A stretch of DNA of 31,918 nucleotides from Saccoglossus kowalevskii (lineage: Eukaryota > Hemichordata > Enteropneusta > Harrimaniidae): the NCBI RefSeq assembly GCF_000003605.2, contig NW_003144331.1:1-31918 (forward strand), written 5' to 3'. Position numbers and translations under genes: made by a program. Below, one piece after another: positions 1-31,918 of this stretch; within the stretch, counting starts at the first letter, position 1; each line of letters begins with the position of its first letter. The notes beneath the pieces were generated by a model. That model did not search any database. It was not told the origin of the DNA and worked only from the letters and a program-made list of their open reading frames with translations.

Positions 1-949
1 TAATGCACTGGAACCATTATCAGAATTCTGCATGGCTATATATGTTTTCTTACCATATAAATGTTAAAGAACGTTCTCATTGGACGTGTATTTGCGGTAG
101 GTAGTCTTCAGAATGTGTGTTACTTATCCGTCAAGCATTGAACATAAGATTACATTTAAAACCATTCGATAGAAGTCAGTGCAAACTATGTTGTTGAATT
201 TCTATTACTTCATGATAAAATCTTATAAAAACACATGTTAACACTGTGGTTACATGGCTAAATCCGGTAAACTTATCAGATTTGGGGCTGTGTCTGCAGT
301 GATTTGCGGTGGAGATAATGTGCTTTTAAAATGTTGGCCAGGGGTAGGGTTAAATCCACGACTTCATTCACAGTAAGTGGAATTCAATCGAATTTTCAAA
401 AAAAAAAAAATAAACGTAATCAAATTATGTCTTCAAAGCATAGATATTTGACAATTAATGGCAACTATACCCCAATGCTCAATATACCCCACTGTGTTTA
501 TGCAATTTGTGCTGCATGATGCGTTCATACGTTTAGTGTTATTGTAAGACAATCTGTTTCTGAATCACCGCAATTTCGTGTTTTCTTTAGTTTATCGTGG
601 TATAAGTCTACAACGTACAACATTTTTTATGATATACTTTGAGTGTCGTACTCTGAAGGATAAATCTGGCGACAATAACACCCCGCAAAGTAGTGAATAT
701 CTACTGTAAATAGATTAATTATTCACTGGGTTTTAATTTTGCTTATTTCGCTGACTGGAAAATGCGCTAAATTAAAATTTAGCATAGAACACATTATCTA
801 AATGATAAAACCGTGAATTTAAAACCTACTGAATATGCCTGAAATGGTAAATCAGCGAAATTTAAACCCAATATGTTATACCTACTAAAAAGTAATATGA
901 CGTGACTCTTCTGAATGTATCGCGTTGTAATTATGTATTGTACTTTTAG

Positions 950-1066
950 GTAATTGTGAGACCGAAGAGTTCCAATGCAATGATACTAGCTGTATATCAC
1001 AGTACTGGGTATGTGATGGGTATAGTGACTGTGAGGACGGTGAAGACGAGGATGGCTGTGACAACA
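950..1066 (+). CDS. Exon: LDLa module (copy 1, counterpart of module 7)
   Basis: Phase 1-1 exon of 117 nt, with acceptor TTTTAG before 950 and donor GTATGT after 1066. It encodes one complete LDLa module with six cysteines, an aromatic-tryptophan pair (QYWVCDG) and an acidic calcium-site end (DGEDEDGC). It is identical in protein to the exon at 29566-29682; the one base change I see is synonymous. Confidence 0.88.
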
Positions 1067-4000
1067 GTATGTTAATATGTATTGTTTCTCTGTCTGTCTT
1101 GTATAAATGACAACTTATACTGATTTGCGTTGTCTTGTTTTGGCATTGTATATCGACTTTTTTTTTTCTAAAACCACGCGCTGGGTCTGCGTTTTTTTGT
1201 ATTTTGCGACGCGCAACATAGAGGGCGCTTCAATATGATAGACATACGTGTACATGACAATAACGATTGCTTGAAATGTCCCCTTAACTCAGTAGAATGT
1301 TATTCAATAACAATATTTTCAAATCTGTTTTCGTCTGTAAAAACACATGACATAGTATGCTTCATCAATACCATATGCACTCACATATCTTGTTAGTTAT
1401 TGGAGGAGTGAATACAAACAAACAAACAAACAATTATTTCCTTATATGTTATAACTTATATGTTAGTATATTTGAATAAATTAATTCCTAGAATGCACGT
1501 GTTAGTAAATTTGAATCAGTGAAAATTAGACATACCAATCACGAACTGGTTGTGGAATACATAGTCATCTCAGGCTGCTGTAACTGTATTATTGATGTTA
1601 TTTTCTTTCTGTTAGGCGACATTTAAAATTAAGTCGATATTTACCAACTGAGTAGATTATAATAATTTGTATTTGGATTGCTGGCTCACGTACGCAAATA
1701 TAAGTAGCACATATATACAATAGAAATAATAATTTCACAAGACTCGCAATAAACAACAATTAAATTAAAGTTGCTCTATGAGTATAAAGGCATCATATCG
1801 GGGGAAATGCAGCGGATTTAATTTACATGTTCATACAATTTGTCGAGGACTTAACTGTTAACAGTAAATGAATAAATTGCTCATGCGTGTTTCTCGTGTG
1901 ACCTTCTAAATATTGTGACCGAAATTTGTTTCTGAGATGACCCCAACAAGGGGATTTTAAAAGAAAAGAAAATTTATCCTCAACTGCTGAAAACTGTCTA
2001 TAATATATTTCTTTGTCTAGAATCTCCGAATCCATTTCTTAAATCCTTTCAACTTTTAGACCGATTTCCAGTGGAAAACCAGTCGATAAATGTTTATTTA
2101 TCGCTTGCCCTGTTTGCCACACACCAAATCAACGCCCGCTTTTCGCAAGACCAACTGTATTTCAGTTGGCCAGAAGCGTTTTCCTCGATTGTGAAATTCG
2201 ACATTCAAAAAATCTCTGTAATTATTACCATAATGTAACTCGAAAAACGTCACTATATTCAAATGTGTCTGTATCTCAAATTAGGTGAAGACTTCTTTGT
2301 CTGCGATGGAGGAAATCGGACAATACATGTCAGCTGGTTATGTGATGATTATGATGACTGTGATGACGTAACTGATGAAGACCCATCAAACTGCCGAAGT
2401 AAACATTTTTATATCTATTTCTGAAAGATTGTTTTAAGAATAAAAAAAACTTGTCTAGTAGTATTTGCAATGCTTCTAAGCGGCACTATCGTCGTGGAGT
2501 GTGCGCTCGGATTTCGTGATCATTGTATTTTACCCGCGTTTTATACATCACGTGGGACCCATGGCGACAACCGTGACTGTGACACTTTAATTGATGTTCA
2601 GGTTGATAATAATTGTTCAAAAGTGGACGGTACAGATTATAATTCATACCTTAATGATCAGAGTATTCTGAGCGTTTGCAGATGCTCTCATATAACTAAT
2701 CTTAACCCATTGCTATATTGACGTTTTGCATAAACTCAATCAATGTTCATTCTATCATTCACAGATTCTACTTTAACTGCAGCGACAAGTGGTAAGTTTT
2801 CGAACGCGAATTTTTCCTCAGCATTAGTAATATACGATTGTCATGATTTCCCATTAACAGTGAACAATGTTGTATTGCTGCACTGATTACCTTGTTCTAC
2901 TCTAAATAAGTTGATTCATGAGAAACAAGCACATAACAACCATTATAACATGTAACTTCTTCAACAATACTCACATGGACTACAACTCAACAATCTTATT
3001 CAACGACCCGAGAGCGTCAATGTTACCCCTGCATTCGGAGATATCGCAAACAATCGTAAGAGTACGGGTTATCTTGGTGACGGTCGTAGAAATCCATTCG
3101 TACAATTGCGCTATCATTTAATAATGTCCCGTTTATGTCTATTATTTCAGCTCCTTTAACATTCTATTGTCAAACCTCGGGTGAAGAGCTGGCATGGAAG
3201 TACGTTTGTAACAACGTTGTGGATTGTGACGACGCAAGCGATGAAATTAACACAGGGTGTACAAGCGGTAACAAAATAATACAGTTGTTGATATTTTCTC
3301 ACTTTATACTACGCTTTATCGAGCATTTTGCTGGAATCACAGTTTGAAAAGAGGTGGGTTCCACAGTTTTATCGCGGGAGTTACTAAATGTACGTGGAAC
3401 ATTGCGATTAACTATGCCCATCATTACGTCAAAGGTAAAACTATTATACACACATCGTGTTTTATACAATCTTTGCCAGGACACAGAGGCAAGATTCACT
3501 TTGTTAAAACAAATATTAAGAAGTAGTTTCACTAGTCTTACAATTCCATACACGTGCAAACTCAATTTACATTTCAGTGGTGTCCGCTAGTTACCGCCCG
3601 ACAGCAGATGAGCTTTTGTCCTTATACTCGAGTATCTCAGATGACATAACCGTGTATTCCGAGTTCTTGGACGGTTTCTACCAAGATCATTTACTTGGCA
3701 GAGTTGTAAGTGAAGATCCACCCGACTGGTATGGGTTTATTGCGTACAGTAACACCCCTGATTACAGCGACTTAGAGAACGTGTTAAAACTTGACGTGAA
3801 TGAGACTGCGGGTTATGGACATCAACTGAGTGACCTTGTATTGGAATGCTCTTTTGATGCGACCTCCTGTAACGTAACTAGGTAAGTAGTATTTTATTTC
3901 AGCGATTTGTTGCTGTTCAATATAATCACATAGGAACAGCATGTACACACCCACACACACAATAATTACAATTATTATACATCTGTCACCGTAACGCCAT

Positions 4001-7000
4001 AAGTTACAGCGTGCCGTAATTTTGCGATATTGCACTGGGTATTTTAATCCTACTATATTAGAAATGCGAATTCCAAATATGGAAAGATTACGCGCGTAAG
4101 CGTCCTCTAATAATAAAAAGAACCTTGGCAGCCCCAAGGTTTGACCGGTCTTCATACAACGAAGTTCGCTCAATCTCAAAACTTTTTGTATTTCGGCATT
4201 TCCGCTGTACTGTCTTCGTGCATACTTTTCGGTATCCTCATAATAACCTGATATCACATAAACTTTCTACCAGCTGCAGTGCAAGCCAAAATAATGGCTA
4301 ATTAAAGGGAATATGCCTTTTCATTAGTCGCGCTCTCTTGCGATGAAAAAAATTCCGTGACGTCAAACTGACGTAGATGAATGGAAGAATGTGTAGTCCG
4401 TCGTTATTTAGAATATAGCAACTCAATCTCCCAAACATTATTCTTATTGATGAGTGATGTCACAAATGCATGATGGCGCGACTTTTTGGACGATGTATTG
4501 AACTTATCAATTTATTTACTAAGTGGAGCAGTGTCGTGTGCAAACATATTTTAGACAGCATTCTGTTTAATTCTCAGGGATTTTCAGGAATTTTATGATG
4601 ACAGGTATGGCAACTGTTACCAGTTTAACCCTTTCAATGGTAACCAGGATGATGAACGCTACTCAACGAAAACTGGCGCTAATTATGGCGAGTATGAATA
4701 AATAAATATGATATGATATAAATTTATTCAGTACAATGGCCTCAGGCCTATGGTACAATAAATAAAAAATAGAAAAATACATATAAAGTGAATCCTTTAA
4801 ATAATTATTGAATCTACAAATCACAACTTGTTAAATAGCTTTTCTCTATGATTAGAAGCGTAGAATACAAATTTCGAACTTTGAAGAACAGATAAGTTGT
4901 CAAACTGCATTAAACGAAGAAATTTTTCATAAATAAATATTTGTTTCTGTCGGAAAACAGATAGGAATGAGAAGTTACCGAAAACGAATACTTTCTCTGG
5001 GATTGTGAAATGTTCTCCTACAGTGCGATGAAACGATATCCTAATATAATTGTAAATCTTTTTTTATTAACATTAATATTTTGGCGTGCATAAATACACT
5101 TGGTAAAATCTATCAATAAACCTTATCCTACTAACCCTATATACTTTCACATTGACTTGACCAGATAAGGGTTTATCACGTGTTTATAAATTACAGGACT
5201 AAAGATGACACTATTTACCGAGCAAGATGAATACATCAGTGTGTACGGTCGAGATTCTGGTGCAAGGGTTGTGATTCATCCACCACATGTCCCTGCCATT
5301 CCATGGTCTGAGGGAATCACAATACCCCCGGGAATGATTACATCCATTGGAATGAAGGAGGTAAATAAACATCATATATTGTGATATGTATTGTGTTGCT
5401 AAGAGACGTGGCGTGACTACTATTATGATTTATCCGATGTTGTCACATGCTAATGTATGTGTTAATGATGTTACTCATGGATTTGTATATGCCAAGGAGG
5501 TTAACCGTGGTTTCGTATATGTTATTAATACGAGTAATAATGGTTAAATATATCAATTAGATTTCTCCTGGTTTCCTATGTTAATGAGGTTAATCGCGGT
5601 TCAATATATGTTAGGCAGGTTAATCGTGGTTCAATATATGTTAATGAGGTTAATCGAACGTGGTTAAATATATGTTAATGAGGTTAATCGTGCTTCAATA
5701 TATGTTAATGAGGTTAATCTTGCTTCAATATATGTTAATAAGGTTAATCGTGGTTTCGTACTTGTATATCGTTTTAGATGAACGTAATCGTGTTTTTGTT
5801 TCGTTTCAGACCAGGATCAAGCGACAACCACATCCTTACGGAAACTGCACTGAACAAACCGAATTCGAATCTATGTACGGTACTCACTACACTCAGACAG
5901 TAAGTTACCGCTGTGTATTTGCAAGTGGTGTATTGACTAAAACATTTTGGCATTTACAATACTAACTGAGGCAGGATCGAGAACATACAAATTCTTGAGC
6001 ATTTTCTTAATGTTTTGCCTGAATGCGAGTGGCATAATGTGAATAAACATAAGACTATATTATATATATATATATATGTATATTTATGTCTGGGTACAGA
6101 AGACTATCGCTGTACAGCTCTAGATGCCTTAATAACGTTCAACATTAAAATAAACAGTTGTCGTTCTGCATAATTGAGTATTGCGAATGCAAACTTTGAA
6201 ACCGAGGTTAATTTATCAGTTTGACAAATCCCGGTTTAAAAGAATGCAAATAGTGAACTGTGAATAACTGAACATATTTATCATCTTTCTGACAATATCC
6301 ATATCACTTGCATTGATTTTAGATTTGCGAAGAAGAGTGCTTACAGGCGAAAATGTTAGAATTTTGTGGTTGTGTTGATACAATGTTGAGGGATGAACCT
6401 CGCTGTATGCTGCTCAATAGGACACAGGGTAAGATGCAATACGGTGGTTTGTGATGTGATGTGATGTGATGTGTTATGCGATGCGAGGGTAATGTTAATT
6501 CAGTGATTTCATACAATGAGGTGCGATGCGTGCGATCGTGATGTTAAGCAATGCGATACGATGGTATGTGAAGGGATGTCACGTTGCATGTATGCGATAC
6601 GTTAATTCTATTGGCTGTGGGGAAATACGGTGGGATGTTAATGATGTGTGCATGATGTGATGTTACGATATATGATTCAATGTGAAGCTATTATTAATCG
6701 GTAATGTGATGTGATGTACGGCTGCCATGCTATGCAATGCTATGTTAACTGTACGAGATGTGACACAATGGCATGCGATACTAAGATAATGCTAAGTTAG
6801 ATACTAATGTTGTACGATGCGATAAATACGATTATACTGCTATGCTATGTAAAGCTGTGTAATGGTACATGTACATGCATGTGATTTTAACACTCTGGGT
6901 ATGCATGAAATGCGATTAAATATGATTCATGCTACCGAATCATTTACGGGATTATACACGAGAAAGTTGTCCGATTTTTTCCAGATTCTTGCAAGCAATT

Positions 7001-9780
7001 AATTCACTATCTCGCTCGAAAGGAAATATTAGATTGCAGTTGTAGTCAATCTTGCACGTGAGTATTAATGAAGTGGATAACGATTCGATTATTAGAATAA
7101 GTGAATATTTGTGTCCATCTATGGGTCTGTAAAGTATTTTTTTCTTCTATTTGTCAGTCTGTGTCATCGTGGGAGGGGGCGGTTGTTCTTTCATAATCAG
7201 CATATATGAATATTCGTTTTTACAGGGAGAGCTGGTACACAACAACAACCTCCCAGTCAGTATGGCCATCTAATACATATCTAGTGAGTATATCTCCAAT
7301 CCAGAATGTTTTATGAATAATATGTTCCATTTTTATACTTATTACTGTGTTTTGAAGCTTTATTGTGGTACTAGCAAACAGTTTATGTTTTAAAAAAGAA
7401 AGAGTACTTACTTGGTAAATTATGAACGAAAACTGTCCACTGTCGAAGGTTAGCCGACTTTTAGCGCAATAAATAAAGCCATCAGGTAGTATTACAGATA
7501 CTTGGAAGCGTAGATAAGAGCAGATTTGGGCCGAGGTATGATTCTCTAAACTTTTACTTAAGGACCCCAAAATAGTTTGTTAATTAACGAAAGTGGTTGG
7601 GAAGAAGTACAAAATTATAATGTGAATTTGAGAATACTGCAAGTTTTTTTTTACTGTTTTCCGCATCCCCATCGCGGGTTTGGTGTTGTCACACATACGT
7701 GTGTGTGGAAGTTCTTTTGTATAAAAGGATATAGGGCCAATATAATGATATCACACCTGATTTATGTTTGTATCATAGCGAACTAAATGTTGCATCCAAC
7801 CGCAAACTACGCACACTTCGCTCATTCAGTAGAATAACCATATCTGCATTCACACAGCTCGTCGATCTGAAAAAAGTTTGTTCGATCCCAGGGTGTTATT
7901 GCTCAAGAAATGTTTTATTTTTAAATAGAAAGGGTAAAGCTGCACTCTTCACTTGGATCATGCGAGAACAGCGTTTTTCTGAAAAAAAGTCCCTTCTAGT
8001 GAACGGGTATTTTTGAGAACATAGAAACAGACTTATTAATAGCAAATAAATAGTACATTCCTATTAATACTGAACTGAAAATGTTATATTACTAAAAAAA
8101 GGTAGAGTATACGTTTAAAGAAAATATAATCTCCGACAAAACAGTTCGGGAATCATGGTGGATAGATTCGCCAATCATTTCTAACGAGAGAGCTATATTG
8201 GGAATTAAATGCACATGAATTCTGATGAGGGTCCCATACTATGGATAACAACGTATGGCTTAGGAAACTTGATTTGCATGAACATTGAACCCATTTGTAC
8301 TCTCGTAAACTAAACAAATAAACGACGTAGCCTTATTACAATATTTTGCAAAGACGCATTGTGACAACATGTGATTTAAAAGTAATCTTTATTTCTTCCA
8401 CAGAAACATTTACTTAAACAAATCCACTATAACAATGCCAAGACAAATGTAATCAACGATCTAGAAAGCGTCAGGTAAGTTATATACACTGGCATATAGG
8501 AAGATTACTTTCACAATAATATTTATCAAAACTACAGCTGTACTGTCTTCGTGCATACTTTGAGGTATTCTTGTAATAATCTCATTATTATACAACTTTT
8601 CCTTCCACGGATACACCATGGAAATGCCGAAATCCAAAAAGTAATCATTCCATATTTGGAATTCGCATTTCCTTGTATGGTAGGATGGAAATACCCCGTA
8701 AAATACCGCAAAATTACGGCACGTTGTAATTTATGGCGTTACAGTGACAGGTGTATAATAATAAGTATGTTCATTTGATACCTAGTGTATCGTTGGGATA
8801 TACATGTTTTGCAACTTTTGAAACGCACGAACTAACGCCGGAAACTTACAGTCAAAATACGTGCAGTTCGACTTATGTAAAGTGACAGCATTTGAATTTC
8901 TAATTAAATAAGCAAAATAAAGTAGTGTTTAGACATAACACGCACTAACTCAAGAAAGTCGGAGACAACATAGTCGACGATTCCAGAATATAAGCAACAA
9001 CTGTCGATACATACAATACACATTTGCTTTTAGGGCTGCCATAGTTTACAAACCTGCATATACACCTTAGATTCAGTCATCAGATAGAAATGTGTTTTAG
9101 TAACGACTGTGTTTAATCTGCACTGTGAAAAACCACATGAACGGATTTGTATTAAATTCTTTATGTGTACATTAAATTTCAAAATGTTTTTCTTTCATCT
9201 CAAGGCAAAACCTGGTACGCTTAGAAGTGTATTTTGAAGAACTAAATTATGAAAGTATCGAAGAGATTCCAGCAATCACGGTAAGTTGTTTAGTAAAATT
9301 ATTTCAGTTTGCTCTCTAATATTATATGTACATGTACTAAGGATTTATTAATATCGGAATATAAGACAATATTGTTGTTTAACAAAGGTAGAACCATTAC
9401 GCACGTACGGCGTCGGGTTGTTAAGACCCATGCAGACGAGTAGTTTAACATCCTTGAAGTATACCATAAACTACTGTCATATGTGTTTTCTGAAGTTTTT
9501 ATGAACATTTGGAAACCGATAGGCTACCCATCAATGAGAAATTGTATATTACATGTATTCTGACGTAATATCTTAAGGTGGCATTGAGAATCTTGCTATC
9601 GTTATGCAATTTTACTTACAGGAAGAAAACCTACTCAGTGATATTGGTGGAACACTTGGTCTTTATTGTGGATTTTCCTTTATAACGATAGTTGAGTTTC
9701 TTCAGTTTGGTTTTGAATTACTCCGCGTGATATTTTTACGAAGTACTAAAGTTGCCCCAAGTAACGGCAGCCATGCTTGA
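950..9780 (+). CDS. LDLa-repeat DEG/ENaC-family sodium channel, copy 1 (5' truncated by window edge)
   Basis: Multi-exon gene; the visible exons are 950-1066, 2285-2398, 2765-2791, 3151-3267, 3578-3881, 4578-4687, 5197-5360, 5810-5899, 6323-6428, 6985-7057, 7226-7283, 8404-8474, 9205-9280 and 9622-9780. Splice phases agree at every junction and the spliced reading gives 528 codons including the stop, with no internal stop. The protein is membrane-bound. Three LDLa modules are followed by a DEG/ENaC ectodomain (YGNC, a GLKMTLF block, CEEEC...CGC and SVWPS blocks) and then by TM2 with the pore signature [11 protein letters not shown]. In this family three subunits form an amiloride-sensitive cation channel; GxS is the selectivity filter. 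Missing here are the N-terminus, TM1 and the earlier LDLa exons, which should lie left of base 1, as in copy 2 of this window. One intron uses a GC donor. Family assignment is firm; ligand and physiological role are unknown. Confidence 0.9.
2285..2398 (+). CDS. Exon: four-cysteine LDLa module (copy 1)
   Basis: Phase 1-1 exon of 114 nt. It shows the LDLa framework ([20 protein letters not shown]) but lacks cysteines 1 and 3 of the standard six. The counterpart at 30896-31009 differs at three residues (Leu to Ile, Ser to Ala, Arg to Pro). Confidence 0.85.
2765..2791 (+). CDS. Micro-exon: Ser/Thr linker (copy 1)
   Basis: A 27-nt exon between CACAG and GTAAGT that keeps phase 1 on both sides. 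It would add nine residues rich in Ser, Thr and Ala, which suits an O-glycosylated spacer between two LDLa modules. The splice sites are retained in the second copy (31357-31383). Because it is so short it could also be skipped without breaking the frame; transcript data are needed to confirm it. Confidence 0.6.
3151..3267 (+). CDS. Exon: last, four-cysteine LDLa module (copy 1)
   Basis: Phase 1-1 exon of 117 nt, with acceptor ATTTCAG and donor GTAACA. It encodes an LDLa-like module ([20 protein letters not shown], then a final Cys), again lacking cysteines 1 and 3. It is the last module before the channel ectodomain. Confidence 0.85.
3578..3881 (+). CDS. Exon: channel ectodomain, region after the LDLa array
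   Basis: A 304-nt exon (phase 1 in, phase 2 out; acceptor ATTTCAG, donor GTAAGT). It encodes about 101 residues including [11 protein letters not shown], an N-glycosylation site (NET) and an LVLECSF...C block that resembles the variable finger region of DEG/ENaC channels just before the conserved YGNC block. Confidence 0.85.
3960..4255 (-). mobile_element. Interspersed repeat fragment, inverted relative to 8530-8765
   Basis: About 120 bases at 3965-4081 are the reverse complement of 8645-8763; for example AAATGCGAATTCCAAATATGG pairs without mismatch. The flank at 4203-4230 (GCTGTACTGTCTTCGTGCAT) instead matches 8537 in the same orientation. The two copies therefore differ by a small internal inversion, or the element has inverted ends. 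No coding capacity is seen. Probably a MITE-like nonautonomous element lying in an intron. Confidence 0.55.
4578..4687 (+). CDS. Exon: YGNC block of the DEG/ENaC ectodomain
   Basis: A 110-nt exon encoding [17 protein letters not shown], the strongly conserved family block (F...YGNCY.FN). Acceptor TTCTCAG. The only donor that keeps the frame is GCGAGT at 4688, a GC-AG intron. Joined to 5197 it gives ANYGLKMTLF, as the family expects. Confidence 0.88.
4690..4790. repeat. AT-rich tail with a near-palindrome (possible retrotransposon 3' end)
   Basis: AATAAATAAA and a short GATAT run precede a near-palindrome, GTACAATGGCCTCAGG followed by CCTATGGTAC. A microsatellite-like tail beside a conserved end is typical of non-LTR element 3' ends, but I cannot name a family. 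It begins right after the GC splice donor at 4688. Confidence 0.3.
5197..5360 (+). CDS. Exon: conserved palm region of the DEG/ENaC ectodomain
   Basis: A 164-nt exon encoding [31 protein letters not shown] and [16 protein letters not shown]. This matches the family pattern of GL.L.L, then Y, then G..V.IH...P.P, then the PG..T block. Donor GTAAAT at 5361, phase 0. Confidence 0.92.
5576..5756. repeat. 30-bp minisatellite in the intron 5361-5809
   Basis: About six units of roughly 30 bp, with consensus ATATGTTAATGAGGTTAATC followed by GTGGTTCAAT. Weaker copies start near 5440. The 101-codon open frame across it is produced by the repeat (unit length divisible by three) and is not a gene. Confidence 0.85.
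5810..5899 (+). CDS. Exon: PYGNC block
   Basis: A 90-nt phase 0 exon (acceptor TTTCAG, donor GTAAGT) encoding [15 protein letters not shown] and YGTHYTQT. It corresponds to the family's thumb entry, where R..PYG.C precedes the cysteine-rich segment. Confidence 0.9.
6059..6077. repeat. TA microsatellite
   Basis: A short, nearly perfect TA run in the intron 5900-6322. Confidence 0.8.
6323..6428 (+). CDS. Exon: cysteine-rich thumb, first part
   Basis: A 106-nt exon encoding [10 protein letters not shown] and EFCGCVD plus a further cysteine (PRCML). This is the canonical C...C...CxC arrangement of the DEG/ENaC thumb. Donor GTAAG at 6429, phase 1 out. Confidence 0.9.
6440..6920. repeat. Degenerate GATGT/GATGC repeat field in the intron 6429-6984
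   Basis: It starts as clean GATGT units (6450-6475) and then decays into scattered ATGTGATG, GCGATGCGA and ATGCTATG words for over 400 bp. This looks like an old simple repeat eroded by mutation. It fills almost the whole intron. Confidence 0.7.
6985..7057 (+). CDS. Exon: cysteine-rich thumb, second part
   Basis: A 73-nt exon (acceptor TTTTTTCCAG, donor GTGAGT) encoding a DSCKQL start and DCSCSQSC. The closely spaced cysteines match the family's C.C...C segment. Phase 1 in, phase 2 out. Confidence 0.88.
7226..7283 (+). CDS. Exon: SVWPS block
   Basis: A 58-nt exon (acceptor TTTTTACAG, donor GTGAGT) encoding [15 protein letters not shown] and NTYL. S.WPS is a common family block after the last thumb cysteines. 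Confidence 0.85.
8404..8474 (+). CDS. Exon: ectodomain, late palm region
   Basis: A 71-nt exon (acceptor TTCCACAG, donor GTAAGT) encoding [20 protein letters not shown]. The position matches the helix-rich part between the thumb and the last beta-strands. It is less conserved, but the splice sites and phases (0 in, 2 out) fit. Confidence 0.8.
8530..8765 (+). mobile_element. Interspersed repeat fragment, partner of 3960-4255
   Basis: It lies in the intron 8475-9204 and shares about 120 bp with the reverse complement of the other copy, plus a GCTGTACTGTCTTCG segment in the same orientation. The open frame through it is incidental, because its counterpart is not coding. Confidence 0.55.
9205..9280 (+). 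CDS. Exon: pre-TM2 beta-strand
   Basis: A 76-nt exon (acceptor CTCAAG, donor GTAAGT) encoding [15 protein letters not shown] and SIEEIPAIT. It resembles the family pattern L.VYF..L.YE......, the strand that leads into TM2. Confidence 0.9.
9622..9780 (+). CDS. Terminal exon: TM2, selectivity filter and short C-terminus
   Basis: A 159-nt exon (acceptor CTTACAG) ending in TGA at 9778-9780. It encodes [20 protein letters not shown] and then [14 protein letters not shown]. The GFS triplet sits at the GxS selectivity filter, and the small Ser in LLSDIGG sits at the degenerin position, where bulky substitutions lock other family members open. Only about 17 residues follow the helix, and no PPxY motif is present in this tail. 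Confidence 0.93.
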   Translation, partial: EENLLSDIGGTLGLYCGFSFITIVEFLQFGFELLRVIFLRSTKVAPSNGSHA

Positions 9781-18583: not shown

Positions 18584-19651
18584 GTTAACAGATGAACAAA
18601 ATGGTGTCATGTTACCCACCGATTTACAGCAGTCCACAGTGTCGTACCGTAATAACAAAGCAGAAACTACACCTCGGTCATAATCGCCGATATATGCCTC
18701 CCCGATTGATCTTCCATCGCCGATGCAGATGACAGTGCCTGAGCCCCCGCTCGATCTTGCAACGGCAGCTAATGATCTTATCGCCAATGTGAGGACAGTG
18801 CGAGATACCTCTGCTGATTTGCCAACCATACCCACCGAGACATTGATTCAGGATTCGGCAGAGCACCATACGCCTCTCGACCTTCCGAATCAAATGCATG
18901 TGTTTCGAACTGATTTGTTAGCGTCACCAGTGCATGACTCGCCGATAGATTTACCGGCGATACCGAAACAAGACCAGAGGAAACCAGGCTCGGTCTCGCC
19001 ATTAAAAGACCCGCCAGTTGATAGACCGTTGCAAGGTCAAAACTCTAATCGGGCGGGGGAGCCAGTTTATGATTCCCCGACTCACTCTCCATTAAGCTCG
19101 CATACGTCTCCCTTGCATGGTCAAATGAAGAACCACAATACACATGACAATTCAAGCTCATCAACGCCGCGTATTTCAATGAATAATTGTTTTGTTTTGC
19201 CAACAAATAATCCCCGGATGTACCGACAAACCTCGCCAGCGGATAATCCAGGAACAAATCGGACTGCTTCTGAAAGTAGTCGGAACCCCACAATTGTGGC
19301 CTCACCAAGAAAACCTCGGGGACACGTACATAGCTCGAGGACACGGCGCATATCGCAACCAGGTCGGAAATCTAAAGGACGTCGCGCAATGTCGCCTACC
19401 TACGCTAGCCCAATAGATGCAGTGACCACGCCGCCGATGTCTGGTCATTGCAACAACAGTTTTGACGCTACCCAACAAAATGAGTCGCAATACCGCCCGA
19501 AGGCAATGCAGCTCGCAACTCGCACAGACGATCGCGTGAACCTATCACGCATTTCCTTGATCTTACTCCGACCAACTTGAATCCACCACCGGGTGAGGCG
19601 CCGCCACCTTACGACGAAGTGCGGCAAAGTACGTCGGTGTATCTTTGTTAA
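18584..19651 (+). pseudogene. Proline-rich terminal exon with C-terminal PPPY motif, interrupted by a stop and a frameshift
   Basis: A GC-richer stretch that stays open for nearly 350 codons apart from two breaks. It opens after a polypyrimidine tract and CAG (18581-18583). TAA at 18681-18683 interrupts it. From ATG 18723 it runs 285 codons to TGA at 19578-19580. The other frame, open from 19484, carries on to TAA 19649-19651 and encodes PPPGEAPPPYDEV and then QSTSVYLC. The body repeats an SPIDLP-like motif (SPIDLPS, TPLDLPN, SPIDLPA, PPVDRP, SPIDAV) and tyrosine sites (SPIYASP, EPVYDSP, SPTYASP). PPPY is a ligand for WW domains, for example of NEDD4-type ubiquitin ligases. The whole resembles a disordered cytoplasmic tail. 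The gene is unrecognised. The breaks may be real decay or sequence error. Confidence 0.5.
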
Positions 19652-22223: not shown

Positions 22224-22330
22224 CAATGCTGAACAAGCAAACTTAACTCAGGAAGATTATCACGTGGCCTTGGTTTAAACATCAAGGATTTTAATACAAA
22301 ATACGCCAGTAGCAAACAAATGTTACATAA

Positions 22331-22776
22331 GAGACCTTAGAAAGAGGTCTCTCTCAAAGGTAACTATGGTTGCATATACTGTTAAATTTGAATGATAGAT
22401 CGCAGTGTTTTGCGTATATCGACCACTATTAATGTGATCCATATTTTAGTATATGCAATCATAGTTAAGTATAAGAGATAACTTATATTACATAGGAGAC
22501 CTTAGAAAGAGGTCTCTCTCAAAGGTAACTATGGTTGCATATACTGTTAACTTTGAATGATAGATCCCAGTGTTTTGCATATATCGACCACTAGTAATGT
22601 GATCCTTATTTTAGTATATGCAATTATAGTTATCTTTGAGAGTTAACTTATATTACATAGGAGACCATAGAAAGAGGTCTCTCTCAAAGGTAACTATGGT
22701 TGCACATACTATTAACTTTGAATGATAGATCCCAGTGTTTTGCATATATCGACCACTAGTAATGTGATCCTTATTT
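22331..22776. repeat. 165-bp tandem repeat, three units, each able to fold into a hairpin
   Basis: Units start at 22331, 22496 and 22661 (the last cut short near 22776). Each opens with GAGACC...GGTCTC, an inverted pair. The first two units also contain long arms: 22361-22380 with 22449-22468 (19 of 20 pairs) and 22516-22545 with 22613-22642 (about 27 of 30 pairs). The array ends about 57 bases before the start codon of channel copy 2, so it lies in its promoter or 5' UTR. Probably a MITE-derived array. Confidence 0.85.
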
Positions 22777-22833
22777 TCTTTTGATATTAACGAGTTCCAC
22801 GTCGAGTTTCACTGGCCTCGTAGATCGGTGAGA

Positions 22834-23157
22834 ATGTCTTTTGAAAACAGCAGAGCCAACGGCAACGATTCGGTCGGTCCCAACACCGATTTTAACTCCT
22901 ATTTCGACAGAGACAAACCCCGAGATCCCCCACCAAGTTCAGATGATGTGGACACAAGCGCGAAACGGAATGCAAAGAAAATTGTCAACGACTTTATGGG
23001 ATCTACTACGGCCCATGGGCTCCCGAGGATATTTGACGGGAAAGGAATTATCGTGGCGATTTTCTGGACGATAATATTCCTAACAGCGCTAGCGGTATCA
23101 GTGTGGCAAATACAAAAACTATTTAAACAGTTCATGGACAGGGATGTTAACGTTAGG
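22834..23157 (+). CDS. Exon 1: N-terminus and TM1
   Basis: 108 codons. It ends in [35 protein letters not shown] and a charged stretch (DRDVNVR). HG before TM1 is the conserved gating dipeptide of DEG/ENaC channels. Donor GTAGGT at 23158, phase 0. Confidence 0.92.
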
Positions 23158-26100
23158 GTAGGTAAAGGGTATTCTAATTGAAATCTGCGTTTACGTTTTG
23201 CCCTCATTGATTTACATTATGGGGTTGTGAAATTGTATTTTTTTCTCTTCTCCCACAACAAATTTATTTTCCCAATTCCCCCAGCCCATCAGTTTTCATA
23301 TGTGTAAGCCCTAAACTATTCATTTTCTCAGTACTGAATCAACACAAGACGTCCCTATTGTTTGCAATTAACTATTGTCGTAGTATGTCCCTTCATGCCT
23401 ACTTGAATCAATGCCATTGATAATAGTTATTTTTTCGGTAAGTGAGTGGCTTAACTTTATTTTTTCAGATTAAAGTGGTGTCTGCAACAGGTCTACCATT
23501 TCCAAGCGTTTCGATATGCAATACGAACAAATTACGAATGTCCGCCATAGCAGAGTCGCCATACAAGCAACTCATAACAGTTGATACAGAAATAGTTCGG
23601 CCATACTATGGTAGGTCGATTACCTTTTCTTCTGTCAATGATATATATGAATAGAGGCGTATCTACACATGATTCGATGTAGCTGATAGTAACTTGCCTA
23701 TTTTTTCCCGAAACGGGTATTTTCGAGAATGGTTATATCAGGCAAAGTCCCTCAATATATCTATCTGTGGTAGAGGGATTGTGTATCATGTCAGGTGTTT
23801 TGAGTAAGTTTGCAATACAATGTAACCGACCTTCTAGGATGAACGAAGCCTGCGTCAGTGAGCGTCTTTTTTTTTTTTTTACAAATCTATCTAATTATAT
23901 TCCTATTCTGCAGTTACTTTCTTTGTATCAGGATGTATGTTTTTCTATTCATATCTATCATTGAAAAAGGGTACTTTGTCCGGAATATCTTGTACTGCCT
24001 TTTTCTGAAAATTATTATTTTTGAGAATGTTACATTTCAAGTTGTCCAAATTGTTAGGGCAGTTATAAGTGTTATTTTGTGGTAATTTAAGTCATTATAC
24101 ACATTATACATTATACACACTCTTTCGAGATATTACAAATCGGTCAGTTTTTACTCCTCATACTTTCTTAAAATATAAATACGCATGTAATTCCATTGTA
24201 CATTTTATTTTGTTTACAAAGTGTGTAATATACCCACCTTCTATGTTCATTTTAGCACATATGTGTATTGAAGGTGACTTCCGTTGCAATAACAATGGTT
24301 GTATAAAGAGCTATTTGAAATGTGACGGGTATGATAACTGTAGAGATAGAAGTGATGAACAAAACTGCAACTACGGTGAGTACATCGCGATACATATGCA
24401 AGGCGTATAGACCTTTCCCGTGACGTCAATGGATATCAGGGACTTAGTGTGTGTACGTTATTATAAATATGTACGATTTTATGTGCTTTATTGTAAGTAT
24501 GCACGTTATTGTAAGTATGTACTCACAAGTATGTAGTTACGTAAGTATGCACGTTATTGTAAGTATGTGCTTTATTGTAAATATGTGCTTTCATTGTAAA
24601 TATGTGCTTTATTGTAAGTATGCACGTTATTGTAATTATGTACTCACAAGTATGTAGTTACGTATTGTGTGTACGTTATTATAGGTATGTACTTATTGTA
24701 AGTATGTGCTTCATTGTAAATATGTACATTATTGCAAATATGTACTTTATTGTTATTATGTACTCACAAGTATGTACTTACTTATTGTGTGTACGTTATT
24801 ATAGGTATGTACTTATTGTAAGTATGTGCTTCATTGTCAATATGTACATTATTGTAAATATGTACTTTATTGTAAGTCAAAATTATATACCTTATTGTAA
24901 TTCATTTTACCATGAGGATGTCATTGGGTTTATTCACAACATTCCATTGCAGGCAAATGCGGTCTCACGCAATTCAAGTGTAACACCGGAAGTCCCCTAG
25001 GCGCATGCGTGGATGAAACATATAGATGTGACCGAATTTTGAACTGTTATGGAGGTGAAGATGAAGACAACTGTGGTAAGTTAATGTTCTCTCCAATAAT
25101 ATTAAAGTAGCGGGATAGTCTATTTTGTTAGAAAAAAAATTGATGAAGGCTCGAGTCAGAGCAATTATGGCCAAATCATATAGATGTTTGAAAAAGGCTT
25201 TTTTTTGTGTAGACTGTATTTGTTTAAAGTCACATGACTCTAAAAATAAACAGATGTGTTAAATGCATAACGTGAATACAAACGCTATTAGCATAACTAC
25301 TGTTATCTTGTTGAAAAAAAAACATTGTAAAGAATACGTCATGGAGTATAATTGTTAGAGTGTTTTGTTTCTTCTAATTAATATTTCCATCATTTCTAAA
25401 ATGGTAACTGTTCCTGCTATTTAGTGTCTCCGTGATGTCACGTTCGTATTTCGGACAATGTTTTAAAATACGGGAAACATTTGTAGAAAAAATCAAAATG
25501 CAACTTAGGAGCTGTTTTTTGGATTTAAGCAAACTGGAGTTGTTCAGAATTGAAAATGGAGAAAACGGCACTTGTGTGAGTCTGTAATTTCTGCAAGATT
25601 ATCGCATGTTTTAACATTTACAGTTAATTAGATTGAGGACAAATACATAATTTGAAATATTGTCATGAAGTAAAGATAGTGTTTGAACAGTGTTTGTTTT
25701 AACCGATTTCAGGAGACTTCCCTTAGAAATTTGTAATTGAAAAACGTAGGAGCTAATCTTCCATCACACCCACTTGAGCTTGTGCTGTTGTATTGGACAC
25801 AGGTACTATGAGTAACAGGCACAAAAGGGCCCATCCTGCTAACTTAAATGTGTTGATTTTTGGTACCTGAAAATTTACTTACGCGATCGTTACTGGACGA
25901 TCTACCGAAAATTCCTTTATCCATAGCGTGCGCGTCAATCAAACGCAGCGACAGTGCCACATAACGCAGTGGGTGCTTGGAAATGTTTTACTTAAACAGC
26001 AATGAACTAGATTGTCGCTTTCCGAATAAACAAGGGCACTACCCAAAGACACGAAATTAGTTCTTACACGAATTAGGATTTAGGTTTCTGTTGCGAATTT

Positions 26101-28568
26101 GTAATCATATCGCAATTTAATTACACGTGATCTTCATCCACATCACACCTTCGCATACTAGTACATTCATTTTATATGACTTAAATATCTTCAAGAATGT
26201 AAAGACAAAAAGGAGTTCAAATGTGTGACGTCGGGCCGCTGTATTGCGCTATCCAACCTGTGTAATGGTGTAGAAGACTGTGTAGATGCTAGCGACGAGA
26301 GCAACTGTGAGTAGTTTGGTTTAATGAAAACACTTCCACCATTTACTTTGAATCATTCGCTTAAGAATGAGGCGCGCCCGATAGAGCGAAATCTGTCCAG
26401 AAATCAGTTTGTTAAACTTTGCTTCTTTTTCTTTGTTTTTGTTTTAGTAAGCCTATTTAATTATGGGCAACCTAGTCATGAAATTCTCACAAATTACTAG
26501 TAATGGGGATGATTTTAATCCATTACTGTAACATTCACATGTACGTCTTGGGTGAAACACTTAAAATTATTCAGTCAACAGAAATGACTCCTCTAAAATG
26601 GCATAATATTCAACGAAATCATGTATGGAATGCACATCTTATTACGGCTGACCACTATCATGTTTAATCCAGTTTAAAGACAGAACAATGTTGACGCAGT
26701 CCACAGAACAGTGATGATTATTATTTTACGAGCACACAAATACCGACTCATCTCTGAACTGTGACAAGTGTTAATCTATGCCACGACGGGAGCCCACTCA
26801 ATGAGTGAAAATACCGTACCTATACGACAGGTTCACACTGCCCTAATGTATATTTCTAAATAAAACACACCAGGTACAAAAGGCGGAATGTACTGCGCAG
26901 ATGATTATTTCCAGTGTGATGATCAACGGAAGTGTATACCACCAAGTTGGCAATGTGATGATTACAGTGATTGCGATGACAACACGGACGAATTGGACTG
27001 CGCAACACAATCTGCAGGTAAAAAACGTAACCTATGTTAGCATCACATTTGGGCTATGAATTGCAATTGCATGTGACATTCAAAGTGTTATTAACTTATT
27101 AATGTTGATAATAACTCGACAATTAACGATGCGCATTGCATTATACGATATTTTATATAATGCACGCCATATTTCACCGGCTAAACATCGGTTAACTCAT
27201 GGTCGCGTGCAGGTCACGGCATGCAAACCCGGAGCGCGAAACTCGAATGGTTTATTTGATGTAACAATCAAGTACCTATGATTTCATTATTTTGTACCTC
27301 GGCTGTTCTGAATTTAGGAGTTTTATCAATCAATTTGTCACAGTTAATACGCATAGCTTAATTTGTAGTAAATTTGTTGTCGTACTTTCATATACAATGT
27401 CATAACCTGGTTACGTCATTTAGCCGCAGAATGTCCAAAAGGGTCATTGGCTAATTCAAGACAGCCGTGATGTAAACGGTAGTAATTCGTACGACACATT
27501 ATTTTCGATTTTCGCAATAAGGAGAAACATGTTTATATATATGCATTAACATATGTTTTACTCTGTTCCAGGAGAAACAGGTATTGTGGTTTGCTCAAAC
27601 ACAGAATTCCAATGTGATGCAGCGAACTGTATCCCACTATCGTGGAGTTGCGATTGGTACCTAGACTGCCTCTCGGGGAACGATGAAGAGAATTGCGACG
27701 ACAGCGCAACAAACGGTACGCGCATTTAAACATTGCAAATATTCTGTTCAAACTCACCCTAAATAAATGTTGGCAAATTATATCGTGATCATGAAACACA
27801 TTTTTACAAATATTTCTACATTGATTATTGCTTATATGCCACACAGATTGTGACTCGGATCTATTTATGTGCGATGACAACACGTGTATTGTGAGTTATT
27901 GGGTATGCGATGGTGTGGCTGACTGCTTGGACCAGACTGATGAAGCGGAATATAACTGTGGGTATGGAAGCGAATCTTCTAACGGTAATTATTGGAGCAG
28001 TATTTGATTTGCTGTTTAGATAACATGACCTCTGGTGTAGGTTATTTTTATATCCAATATTTCAGGGTTCTTTGCCAGATCCAATGATTTTATCCTTGTC
28101 ATCGTGATCACCACAGTACGTGGGAGGCGAGAATGCAATTTTGACGCTTTTTGTTAAAGCGATAGGGTTGGCACCTGCGCACGCGCGGGAATTGAGTCCC
28201 AGGCGACGATAACAACTCACGCTAAAAACGCAAAGGCTCATAGGTAGACGCTTGTTTGAAAACAATGACACGCCGTGGCCATCTGAGGCATGCGCAGGTG
28301 ATGACTCCCCCGCTTTAACTTTCATTTTATAAAAATAATTGCCTTGCAGCATCGAATGAAGTTTTGAACATATGAAAGCTGAATTAGCCACTAGTGGTTT
28401 TGGCGACATTCCACGTATTTTTTTTTTAGCTAAGACTGTATTTAAAAAAAAAACTTCTTAATTAACTTGGAAAACACAGCGTATAGTTGGGCAATAGAAT
28501 AAATTCGCTTGTGATGTTTCACAATGGTGGAATGAAATTTAAAAACAGGGAATGTAGTTTATCTGCAG

Positions 28569-28614
<46 letters not shown>

Positions 28615-31600
28615 TATAATGCACTGGAACCATTATCAGAATTCTGCATGGCTATATATGTTTTCTTACCATATAAATGTTAAAGAACGTTCTCATTGGA
28701 CGTGTATTTGCGGTAGGTAGTCTTCAGAATGTGTGTTACATATCCGTCAAGCATTGAAGATAAGATTACATTTAAAACCACTCGATAGAAGTCAGTCCAA
28801 AATATGTTGTTGAATTTCTATTACTTCATGATAAAATCTTATAAAAACACATGTTAACACTGTGGTTACATGGCTAAATCCGGTAAACTTATCAGATTTG
28901 GGGCTGTGTCTGCAGTGATTTGCGGTGGAGATAATGTGCTTTTAAAATGTTGGCCAGGGGTAGGGTTGAATCCACGACTTCATTCACAGTAAGTGGAATT
29001 CAATCGAATTTTCAAAAAAAAATAAATAAACGTAATCAAATTATGTCTTCAAAGCATAGATATTTGACAATTAATGGCAACTATACCCCAATGCTCAATA
29101 TACCCCACTGTGTTTATGCAATTTGTGCTGCATGATGCGTTCATACATTTAGTGTTATTGTAAGACAATCTGTTTCTAAATCACCGCAATTTCGTGTTTT
29201 CTTTAGTTTATCGTGGTATAAGTCTACAACGTACAACATTTTTTATGATATACTTTGAGTGTCGTACTCTGAAGGATAAATCTAGCGACAATAACACCCC
29301 GCAAAGTAGTGAATATCTACTGTAAATAGATTAATTATTCACTGGGTTTTAATTTTGCTTATTTCGCTGACTGGAAAATGCGCTAAATTAAAATTTAGCA
29401 TAGAACACATTATCTAAATGATAAAACCGTGAATTTAAAACCTACTGAATATGCCTGAAATGGTAAATCAGCGAAATGAAAACCCAATATGTTATACCTA
29501 CTAAAAAGTAATATGACGTGACTCTTCTGAATGTATCGCGTTGTAATTATGTATTGTACCTTTAGGTAATTGTGAGACCGAAGAGTTCCAATGCAACGAT
29601 ACTAGCTGTATATCACAGTACTGGGTATGTGATGGGTATAGTGACTGTGAGGACGGTGAAGACGAGGATGGCTGTGACAACAGTATGTTAATATGTATTG
29701 TTTCTCTGTAAATGACAACTTATACTGATTTGCGTTGTCTTGTTTTGGCATTGTATATCGACTTTTTTTTTTAAAACCACGCGCTGGGTCTGCGTTTTTT
29801 TGTTTTTTGCGACGCGCAACATAGAGGGCGCTTCAATATGATAGACATACGTGTACATGACAATAACGATTGCTTGAAATGTCCCCTTAACTCAGTAGAA
29901 TGTTATTCAATAACAATATTTTCAAATCTGTTTTCATCTGTAAAAACACATGACATAGTATGCTTCATCAATACCATATGCACTCACATATCTTGTTAGT
30001 TATTGGAGGAGTGAATACAAACAAACAAACAAACAAACAAACAATTATTTCCTTATATGTTATAACTTATATGTTAGTATATTTGAATAAATTAATTCCT
30101 AGAATGCACGTGTTAGTAAATTTGAATCAGTGAAAATTAGACATACCAATCACGAACTGGTTGTGGAATACATAGTCATTTCAGGCTGCTGTAACTGTAT
30201 TATTGATGTTATTTTCTTTCTGTTAGGCGACATTTAAAATTAAGTCGATATTTACCAACTGAGTAGATTATAATAATTTGTATGTGGATTGCTGGCTCAC
30301 GTACGCAAATATAAGTAGCACATATATACAATAGAAATAATAATCTCACAAGACTCGCAATAAACAACAATTAAATTAAAGTTGCTCTATGAGTATAAAG
30401 GCATCATATCGGGGGAAATGCAGCGGATTTAATTTACATGTACATACAATTTGTCGAGGACTTAACTGTTAACAGTAAATGAATAAATTGCTCATGCGTG
30501 TTTCTCGTGTGACCTTCTAAATATTGTGACCGAAATTTGTTTCTGAGATGACCCCAACAAGGGGATTTTAAAAGAAAAGAAAATTTATCCTCAACTGCTG
30601 AAAACTGTCTATAATATGTTTCTTTGTCTAGAATCTCCGAATCCATTTCTTAAATCCTTTCAACTTTTAGACCGATTTCCAGTGGAAAACCAGTCGATAA
30701 ATGTTTATTTATCGCTTGCCCTGTTTGCCACACACCAAATCAACGCCCGCTTTTCGCAAGACCAACTGTATTTCAGTTGGCCAGAAGCGTTTTCCTCGAT
30801 TGTGAAATTCGACATTCAAAAAATCTCTGTAATTATTACCATAATGTAACTCGAAAAACGTCACTATATTCAAATGTGTCTGTATCTCAAATTAGGTGAA
30901 GACTTCTTTGTCTGCGATGGAGGAAATCGGACAATACATGTCAGCTGGATATGTGATGATTATGATGACTGTGATGACGTAACTGATGAAGACCCAGCAA
31001 ACTGCCCAAGTAAAAAAAAAATTATATCTATTTCTGAAAGATTGTCTCAAGAATAAAAACGTGTCTACTAGTAGCTGCAATGCTTCTAAGCGGCGCAGTC
31101 TTCGTGGAGTGTGCGCTCGGATTTCGTGATCATTGCATTTTACCCGCGTTTTATACATCACGTGGGACCTCTCGGCGACAACCGTGACTGTGACACTCTA
31201 ATTGATGTTACGGTTGATAATAATTAGATTATAATTCACACCTTAATGATCAGAGTATTCTGAGCGTTTGCAGATGTTCTCATATAACCAATCTTCACCC
31301 ATTGCTATATTGACGTTTTGCATAAACTCAACCAATGTTCATTCTATCATTCACAGATTCTACGTTAACTGCAACGACAAGTCGTAAGTTTTATAACGCG
31401 AATTTTTCCTCAGCATTAGTAATATACGATTGTCATGATTTCCCATTAACAGTGAACAATGTTGTATTGCTGCACTGATTACCTTGTCCTACTCTAAATA
31501 AGTTGATTCATGAGAAACAAGCACATAACAACCATTATAACTTGTAACTTCTACAACAATACTCACATGGACTACAACTCAACAAACTTATTCAACGACC

Positions 31601-31859
31601 CAAGAGCGTCAATGTTACCCCCGCATTCGGAGATATCACAAACAATCGTAAGAGTACGGGTTATCTTGGTGACGGTCGTAGAAATCCATTCGCACAATTG
31701 CGCTATCATTTAATAATGTCCCGTTTATGTCTATTATTTCAGCTCCTTTATCATTCTATTGTCAAACCTCGGGTGAAGAGCTGGCATGGAAGTACGTGTG
31801 TAACAACGTTGTGGATTGTGATGACGCAAGCGATGAAATTAACACAGGATGTACAAGCG
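22834..31859 (+). CDS. LDLa-repeat DEG/ENaC-family sodium channel, copy 2 (3' truncated by window edge)
   Basis: Exons are 22834-23157, 23469-23610, 24256-24375, 24953-25075, 26196-26306, 26874-27017, 27572-27715, 27847-27984, 29566-29682, 30896-31009, 31357-31383 and 31743-31859, giving 540 codons with all phases consistent. ATG 22834 is the first in frame after a TGA at 22765 and has A at -3. Order in the protein: a 66-residue acidic and proline-containing cytoplasmic N-terminus; the gating motif HG (residues 61-62); TM1 (about 71-91); the FPSVSICN block (about residues 118-126); then nine LDLa modules, one per exon, the last two with four cysteines. The rest of the channel should follow to the right, by analogy with copy 1. 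LDLa modules bind calcium and protein ligands in other receptors, so the array likely acts as a ligand-binding extension of the ectodomain. The exact ligand is unknown. Confidence 0.9.
23469..23610 (+). CDS. Exon 2: first ectodomain strand (FPSVSICN)
   Basis: A 142-nt exon (acceptor TTTTTCAG, donor GTAGGT, phase 0 in and 1 out). [17 protein letters not shown] matches the family's FPAVTICN...R block directly after TM1. Phase 1 at its end starts the run of phase 1-1 LDLa exons. Confidence 0.92.
24256..24375 (+). CDS. Exon 3: LDLa module 1
   Basis: 120 nt, phase 1-1, acceptor TTTTAG, donor GTGAGT. Six cysteines in LDLa spacing ([17 protein letters not shown]) with the DRSDEQNC calcium-site end. 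Confidence 0.93.
24450..24890. repeat. Minisatellite of about 19-21 bp carrying splice-donor consensus
   Basis: Repeats of TTATTGTAAGTATGTGCT-type units with higher-order repetition (a block of about 120 bp recurs near 24660 and 24780). Seven exact GTAAGTATG words are present. It lies in the intron 24376-24952, starting about 75 bases after the real donor. The open frames of 68 and 132 codons across it are repeat artefacts. Confidence 0.85.
24953..25075 (+). CDS. Exon 4: LDLa module 2
   Basis: 123 nt, phase 1-1, acceptor TTGCAG, donor GTAAGT. Six cysteines ([26 protein letters not shown]), with a longer loop between cysteines 2 and 3. Confidence 0.92.
26196..26306 (+). CDS. Exon 5: LDLa module 3
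   Basis: 111 nt, phase 1-1. Acceptor TTCAAG, donor GTGAGT at 26307 splitting the last cysteine codon (T at 26306, GT at 26874). Six cysteines; [10 protein letters not shown] and DASDESN present. Confidence 0.92.
26874..27017 (+). CDS. Exon 6: LDLa module 4
   Basis: 144 nt, phase 1-1, acceptor ACCAG, donor GTAAAA. Six cysteines ([29 protein letters not shown]), followed by a short linker ATQSA. Confidence 0.92.
27572..27715 (+). CDS. Exon 7: LDLa module 5
   Basis: 144 nt, phase 1-1, acceptor TTCCAG, donor GTACGC. Six cysteines ([28 protein letters not shown]) and the linker DDSATN. Confidence 0.92.
27847..27984 (+). CDS. Exon 8: LDLa module 6
   Basis: 138 nt, phase 1-1, acceptor CACAG, donor GTAATT. 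Six cysteines ([30 protein letters not shown]), then a Gly/Ser linker. Confidence 0.92.
28066..28410. other. GC-richer island in the intron 27985-29565
   Basis: Clearly higher GC than the surrounding intron, with CGCACGCGCGGG near 28177-28188. A minus-strand frame of 115 codons covers it but shows no family signature. It may be an inserted element or a regulatory island. Confidence 0.3.
28571..28610. repeat. Perfect AT dinucleotide repeat, 20 units
   Basis: Forty bases of uninterrupted AT, ending six bases before the point that aligns with window base 1. Confidence 0.98.
29566..29682 (+). CDS. Exon 9: LDLa module 7
   Basis: 117 nt, phase 1-1, acceptor TTTAG, donor GTATGT. Six cysteines ([28 protein letters not shown]). 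First coding exon inside the duplicated segment. Confidence 0.93.
30896..31009 (+). CDS. Exon 10: four-cysteine LDLa module 8
   Basis: 114 nt, phase 1-1, acceptor ATTAG, donor GTAAAA. It retains [14 protein letters not shown] and the DVTDED calcium site. Cysteines 1 and 3 are absent, as in copy 1. Confidence 0.88.
31357..31383 (+). CDS. Exon 11: micro-exon linker
   Basis: 27 nt between CACAG and GTAAGT. It encodes a Ser/Thr-rich spacer that differs from copy 1 at one internal residue and at its last base, changing the junction codon from Ala to Pro. It is optional, since skipping it keeps the frame. Confidence 0.55.
31743..31859 (+). CDS. Exon 12: four-cysteine LDLa module 9
   Basis: 117 nt, phase 1-1, acceptor [22 protein letters not shown] and DASDE are present; cysteines 1 and 3 are missing. 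It is the last exon inside the window; the channel exons should follow beyond it. Confidence 0.87.
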
Positions 31860-31918
31860 GTAACAAAATAATACAGTTGTTGATATTTTCTCAATTTATA
31901 CTACGCTTTATCGCGCAT

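Follow-up and report, generated by a model that had tools for sequence, protein, structure and literature searches.

DEG/ENaC channels whose stimulus is known respond to protons, short peptides, proteolysis or force. PMC8536179 describes an HG motif in these channels and a G/SxS selectivity filter in which the middle position is variable. According to PMC6197857, seven disulfides are conserved across the family, and ENaC contains a GRIP domain located between the finger helices alpha1 and alpha2. The stretch of DNA analysed here, which as a whole is called the window, comprises 31,918 bases of contig NW_003144331.1 of the acorn worm Saccoglossus kowalevskii, contains no N, and carries on its plus strand spliced gene parts of animal type. 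We read these parts as a tandemly duplicated gene for a DEG/ENaC subunit with nine LDLa modules in its finger, in which Ca2+-dependent ligand capture would be coupled to gating; judged from the sequence features, we put this reading at about an even chance. The fused architecture itself is well supported, because uninterrupted DNA joins the array to channel exons at its 5' side in copy B and at its 3' side in copy A, the splice signals and intron phases are consistent, and a frame of 943 codons is open.

All gene features given below lie on the plus strand. Copy B, which begins at position 22834 and is cut off where the window ends, is the 5' part, with the DEG/ENaC N-terminus, nine LDLa exons and a microexon, while copy A enters at the start of the window (first exon at 950), ends at 9780, and holds the last three LDLa modules, the finger, palm and thumb, the second transmembrane segment (TM2) and the stop codon. 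Since the 3' part precedes the 5' part in the window, which is impossible for one linear gene, two tandem gene copies are the simplest reading. Positions 28617-31918 of copy B are repeated at 1-3326 with 96.6% identity, introns included. Microsatellites are places where contigs often break, and copy B contains a TA microsatellite at 28571-28611; because window position 1 corresponds to the point just after it, a contig artefact is possible.

As neither copy is complete within the window, the full protein was assembled from copy B (5') and copy A (3'), with exon ends placed by hand using splice signals and the reading frame. Copy B contributes 12 exons, namely exons 1 and 2, those of LDLa 1-8, a microexon of 27 nt and that of LDLa 9. 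Copy A contributes 14, of which four (LDLa 7-9 and the microexon) are shared with B and ten code for the channel; the full model consists of the 12 exons of copy B together with the ten channel exons of copy A. The joined model has 22 exons and 943 residues with no internal stop, in agreement with the original prediction, made from the letters of the same DNA, of a protein of about 900-1000 residues. Its introns are GT-AG in 20 of 21 cases (the B/A junction being made of a B donor and an A acceptor) and GC-AG in one. The GC-AG intron is found in copy A after 4687, following the exon with YGNCYQFN.

Exon 1 of copy B (22834-23157, residues 1-108) encodes the cytoplasmic N-terminus, the HG motif and the first transmembrane segment (TM1), and exon 2 (23469-23610) encodes the first palm strand, FPSVSICN, and the start of the finger, ending in phase 1. 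In copy A, the finger exon (3578-3881) is entered in phase 1 directly after LDLa 9, and is followed by palm, thumb and wrist exons matching Pfam ASC (4578-4687, 5197-5360, 5810-5899, 6323-6428, 6985-7057, 7226-7283, 8404-8474 and 9205-9280) and by the last exon (9622-9780), with TM2 and its GFS filter, a short C-terminus and the stop. When the whole 943-residue model was compared with Pfam, ASC was matched with an E value of 2.5e-81 and Ldl_recept_a with 2.4e-66 over nine stretches. Exons 1-2 alone (155 residues) match ASC over profile positions 1-88 (6.7e-20), and the copy A protein matches it over positions 140-455 (E 1.7e-71) and contains three LDLa in addition. The original prediction had stated that TM1 with HG and FPSVSICN is followed by nine LDLa exons, and that in the sister copy the array leads to the finger, palm, thumb and GFS pore, and both statements were borne out by these matches. 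When the copy B half was compared with Pfam together with its array (540 aa), there was no ASC match at an E value of 0.01; since the match returns once exons 1-2 are scanned alone, the array is taken as masking the weaker N-terminal match.

Other features of the core are those of the family. The HG motif precedes TM1 at residue 61, the GFS filter in TM2 is at residue 908 and fits G/SxS, and the three highest hydropathy windows of the model fall at 72-90 (the top one) and within 896-930, consistent with two transmembrane segments around a large extracellular loop. The core ectodomain has exactly 14 cysteines, which, as a count that leaves pairing aside, is the number required for the seven family disulfides. 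Against PDB chains, the 558-residue core (the model with the array removed) was closest to ENaC alpha (1.7e-51), then to ENaC gamma and ASIC1, with FaNaC matched too, whereas exons 1-2 alone were closest to FaNaC1 (1.4e-10), with ASIC5 also matched; because the two preferences differ, no DEG/ENaC subfamily was assigned. RxxR is matched once in the array (residue 220, inside LDLa 2), and the core has RIKR at 735.

The LDLa exons of copy B differ in how completely they keep the module's cysteines and its acidic Ca2+ cage, the positions of which we take to be those of LDLR LA5. LDLa 1 (24256-24375, Pfam 43.6 bits), LDLa 2 (24953-25075, 32.7 bits) and LDLa 3 (26196-26306, 40.2 bits) each have six cysteines, with Asn in place of one cage Asp; in LDLa 3 the sixth cysteine is completed by the next exon. 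LDLa 4 (26874-27017, 39.4 bits), LDLa 5 (27572-27715, 42.9 bits), LDLa 6 (27847-27984, 39.8 bits) and LDLa 7 (29566-29682, 50.3 bits) have six cysteines, a full cage and the Trp. LDLa 8 (30896-31009, 27.2 bits) and LDLa 9 (31743-31859, 24.0 bits) have four cysteines, lacking C1 and C3, with a full cage and Trp in LDLa 8 and one cage Asp changed to Asn in LDLa 9; cysteines 1 and 3 of an LDLa module pair with each other. Between modules 8 and 9 lies the 27-nt microexon (31357-31383), symmetric in phase 1 and coding for a Ser/Thr-rich linker; neither it nor the four-cysteine state of modules 8 and 9 was part of the original prediction. The counterparts in copy A are LDLa 7 (950-1066), LDLa 8 (2285-2398), the microexon (2765-2791) and LDLa 9 (3151-3267).

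Taken together, six cysteines are present in seven of the nine modules (1-7), the cage is full in five, and one Asp is replaced by Asn in the other four (at the same site in 1 and 2, and at another in 3 and 9), and modules 4-8, five in succession, retain all four acidic cage residues and the Trp. Scanned singly, eight of the nine exceeded the Pfam gathering score, and LDLa 9 stood at 24.0 bits against a cutoff of 24.1. A profile built from the nine modules and run against the window in six frames recovered 12 LDLa exons (nine in copy B, three in copy A), the weakest with E 3.8e-15, and at E<=1 it listed nothing else in the window but a match on the minus strand (0.53) and, within the segment of LDLa 1, a fragment of 0.4 bits; 20 shuffles of the window in 10-base blocks, used as the control, gave two matches at E<=0.01. 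With the model exons masked, a tblastn search of the window for further ASC or LDLa pieces gave three matches, the best with E 3.6. The array, of about 385-386 residues, is strongly acidic (net charge -69 by simple count) and matches the LDLa clusters of LRP2, VLDLR and LDLR among PDB sequences. According to PMC8239462, LRP1 and LDLR bind the ligand RAP through neighbouring modules that keep the conserved Trp, each pair of modules taking up a pair of lysines. A run of five modules of this kind is what would be required for a multivalent ligand site.

Regarding the place of the array in the channel, exon 2 aligns with ASIC1 until just past the first palm strand (FP.V..CN), and the next secure ASIC1 anchor after the array is the stretch ahead of ASIC1 'LLSC'. 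Since these anchors flank it, the array is placed in the finger, in an interval predicted to extend from the first palm strand to the last part of the finger. The earlier wording, that the modules come right after the first strand, is thereby refined to this interval, the region in which ENaC has its GRIP domain; the exact GRIP position would be a plausible site within it. Exon shuffling usually leaves uniform phase-1 introns behind. Between exon 2 and the finger exon, all 11 introns that bound the array or lie inside it are of phase 1, while the remaining ten introns of the model are a mixture of phases 0, 1 and 2, and because of this difference we suggest that a single phase-1 intron of a DEG/ENaC gene received the LDLa cassette through exon shuffling; this origin belongs to an explanation that, taken as a whole, we consider evenly balanced between right and wrong. 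A fast pace of domain recombination is reported for lancelets (PMC4284660).

The same phases bear on splicing. Removal of the array from the model leaves an open channel of 558 residues with the frame kept, and among the 66 forward joins that are possible within this set of 12 exons, which starts with exon 2 and ends with the finger exon, only one, LDLa 3 to LDLa 5, produces a stop, which means that module 4 is not skippable alone. The last cysteine of LDLa 3 is divided by the intron 26306/26874. As the array exons are symmetric, splicing could vary the array, or drop it to give an ordinary 558-residue channel.

As to how such a channel might work, three subunits would come together so that as many as 27 modules surround the outer rim, where modules 4-8 could bind lysine-rich proteins or peptides from outside the cell; this binding would be multivalent and would depend on Ca2+. 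Ligand binding would then shift the finger against the thumb, by which the pore may be opened, closed or modulated, a coupling that can be likened to the proposed effect of GRIP segment removal in ENaC. In its full form, the proposal is of a DEG/ENaC channel gated directly by protein ligands through an LDL-receptor-type cluster at the GRIP position, with symmetric exons allowing isoforms with differing ligand sets or none, and we put this forward tentatively, as possible but doubtful. A family member that carried a protein-binding cluster of several modules at its gating periphery would offer a natural way to ask whether the finger can couple protein capture to pore opening, and since the gene model allows the array to be omitted in frame, a clean comparison with the bare channel would be possible.

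Several points weigh against the ligand-gated reading. The 943-residue model is predicted from DNA with its halves taken from two copies, and the site of the array relative to the finger helices is approximate. The idea of a channel fused to a receptor-like headpiece, which the original prediction had raised, stands as to the fusion; the receptor-like role and ligand gating are suggested by features of the letters, with modules 4-8 keeping those of ligand binding. Part of the array may be structural only, because four of the nine cages carry an Asp to Asn change and two modules have lost two cysteines. Furthermore, a comparison of the copies shows no sign of purifying selection on modules 7-9, since the four exons common to B and A differ at 11 of 375 bases, compared with 57 of 2916 noncoding sites of the overlap (Fisher p 0.24).

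Some of these points would fit a gene that is transcribed but whose array is decaying, with the tandem copies or modules 8-9 becoming pseudogenes: exon divergence between the copies is no lower than noncoding divergence, and C1 and C3 are gone from two modules. However, no stop or frameshift is present in the 22 model exons or in the four duplicate exons of copy A, and the two cysteines, which are partners, were lost jointly in both modules, so we give decay very little credence. It also seems highly improbable that the exons belong to separate genes lying side by side (a 5' fragment of a DEG/ENaC gene, a gene for LDLa modules and the 3' part of a DEG/ENaC gene), or that they were brought together by a contig join error. 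Both copies are indeed incomplete in the window, and position 1 falls just after the microsatellite point of copy B, but B continues without a break from exon 2 to LDLa 1, as A does from LDLa 9 to the finger, with both junctions in phase 1, while ASC positions 1-88 (exons 1-2) and 140-455 (copy A) are complementary parts of one domain, and the copies overlap over 3.3 kb at 96.6% in a window without Ns. The separate-gene reading was rejected as unlikely on account of this contiguity, intron phase and the complementary ASC halves.

Other uses of the same array can be imagined. The LDLa modules could be a tether that anchors a mechanosensitive or positioned channel to the matrix or to neighbouring cells, where the signal would be force or localisation and not ligand occupancy; a peripheral chain of 386 residues with a net charge of -69, joined to the finger, could act in this way, and matrix tethers of ENaC are discussed in PMC7958617. 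Nevertheless, no force-bearing partner was identified, and five consecutive complete Ca2+ cages with Trp exceed the needs of a passive spacer, which leaves the tether on the unlikely side, though with a real chance. Alternatively, the array might serve trafficking or endocytosis in the style of the LDL receptor, with ligand binding setting the number of channels at the surface, since LDLR-family receptors with such modules internalize numerous ligands (PMC8239462). Against this, neither LDLR propellers nor EGF domains were found in the Pfam scan of the model, and an NPxY motif was not seen by eye in its cytoplasmic ends, and we consider this role distinctly improbable.

In the surrounding sequence, a proline-rich open reading frame of 298 codons with recurring SPID and SPIY motifs lies between the copies at 18684-19577 (plus strand), with no Pfam match; since PPPY follows it in another frame at about 19600, before a stop, the true exon may hold an intron or a frame change. 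At 22315-22809 there are three tandem 165-bp units (100, 91 and 78%) with internal inverted repeats, which end 24 bases before the start codon of copy B, and a degenerate tandem repeat with units of the GTATGT/TTATTGTAA type occupies 24442-24875, in the intron that separates LDLa 1 from LDLa 2. A related dispersed repeat occurs in two introns of copy A (3971-4252 and 8537-8762); the two stretches match over about 120 bp in inverted orientation (88%) and over 49 bp in direct orientation (86%), and may represent a small mobile element. Seven other open reading frames of the window had no Pfam family above the cutoff (one weak sub-threshold match, PSI_PSAK, E 0.029), and a tRNA scan with the bacterial code and Rfam at gathering scores gave nothing in the window.

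Regarding earlier records of this combination, the array matched 102 PDB sequences, and the names of the 60 that were listed include no channel with LDLa modules; the literature search gave no DEG/ENaC channel with LDLa modules among the matches listed, while unnamed database entries with the same architecture may exist. Articles holding both 'ENaC' and 'LDLa' included none about an LDLa-bearing channel, as far as titles and the beginnings of abstracts tell. The term 'LDL' is absent from the main texts of the DEG/ENaC surveys PMC9822975 and PMC9949801, and from that of PMC4284660. In viral contigs, seven stretches fitted a pattern and none was confirmed as a relative.

Compared with ENaC alpha and gamma, ASIC1, ASIC5 and FaNaC (ASC, PF00858), the protein predicted here has the same two transmembrane segments, HG motif, first palm strand, 14 core cysteines and GxS filter, and differs by about 385 extra residues of LDLa array in the finger and by a Phe in the middle of the filter (GFS). 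With the clusters of LRP2/megalin, VLDLR and LDLR it shares tandem LDLa modules with acidic cages and Trp, but those proteins are endocytic receptors with one transmembrane segment, whereas this is an ion channel with two, and the Pfam scan of the whole protein at E<=1 gave ASC and Ldl_recept_a only, with no YWTD propeller or EGF modules. Matriptase and the TMPRSS family are type II serine proteases with LDLa modules, and as activators of ENaC they also tie LDLa to ENaC biology; in their case it is the protease that bears the modules, while here the channel does, and the Pfam scan of the 943-residue model showed no protease domain. The relaxin receptor RXFP1 uses a single LDLa module as part of its activation switch, and although it is a G-protein-coupled receptor with one module, the likeness is that of LDLa in the switch of a membrane receptor. 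A parallel within the family's own architecture is the ENaC GRIP domain, likewise an extra finger segment at the channel periphery (PMC6197857); GRIP is a smaller, strand-based segment with protease sites, whereas the segment predicted here consists of nine cysteine-rich modules with one RxxR.

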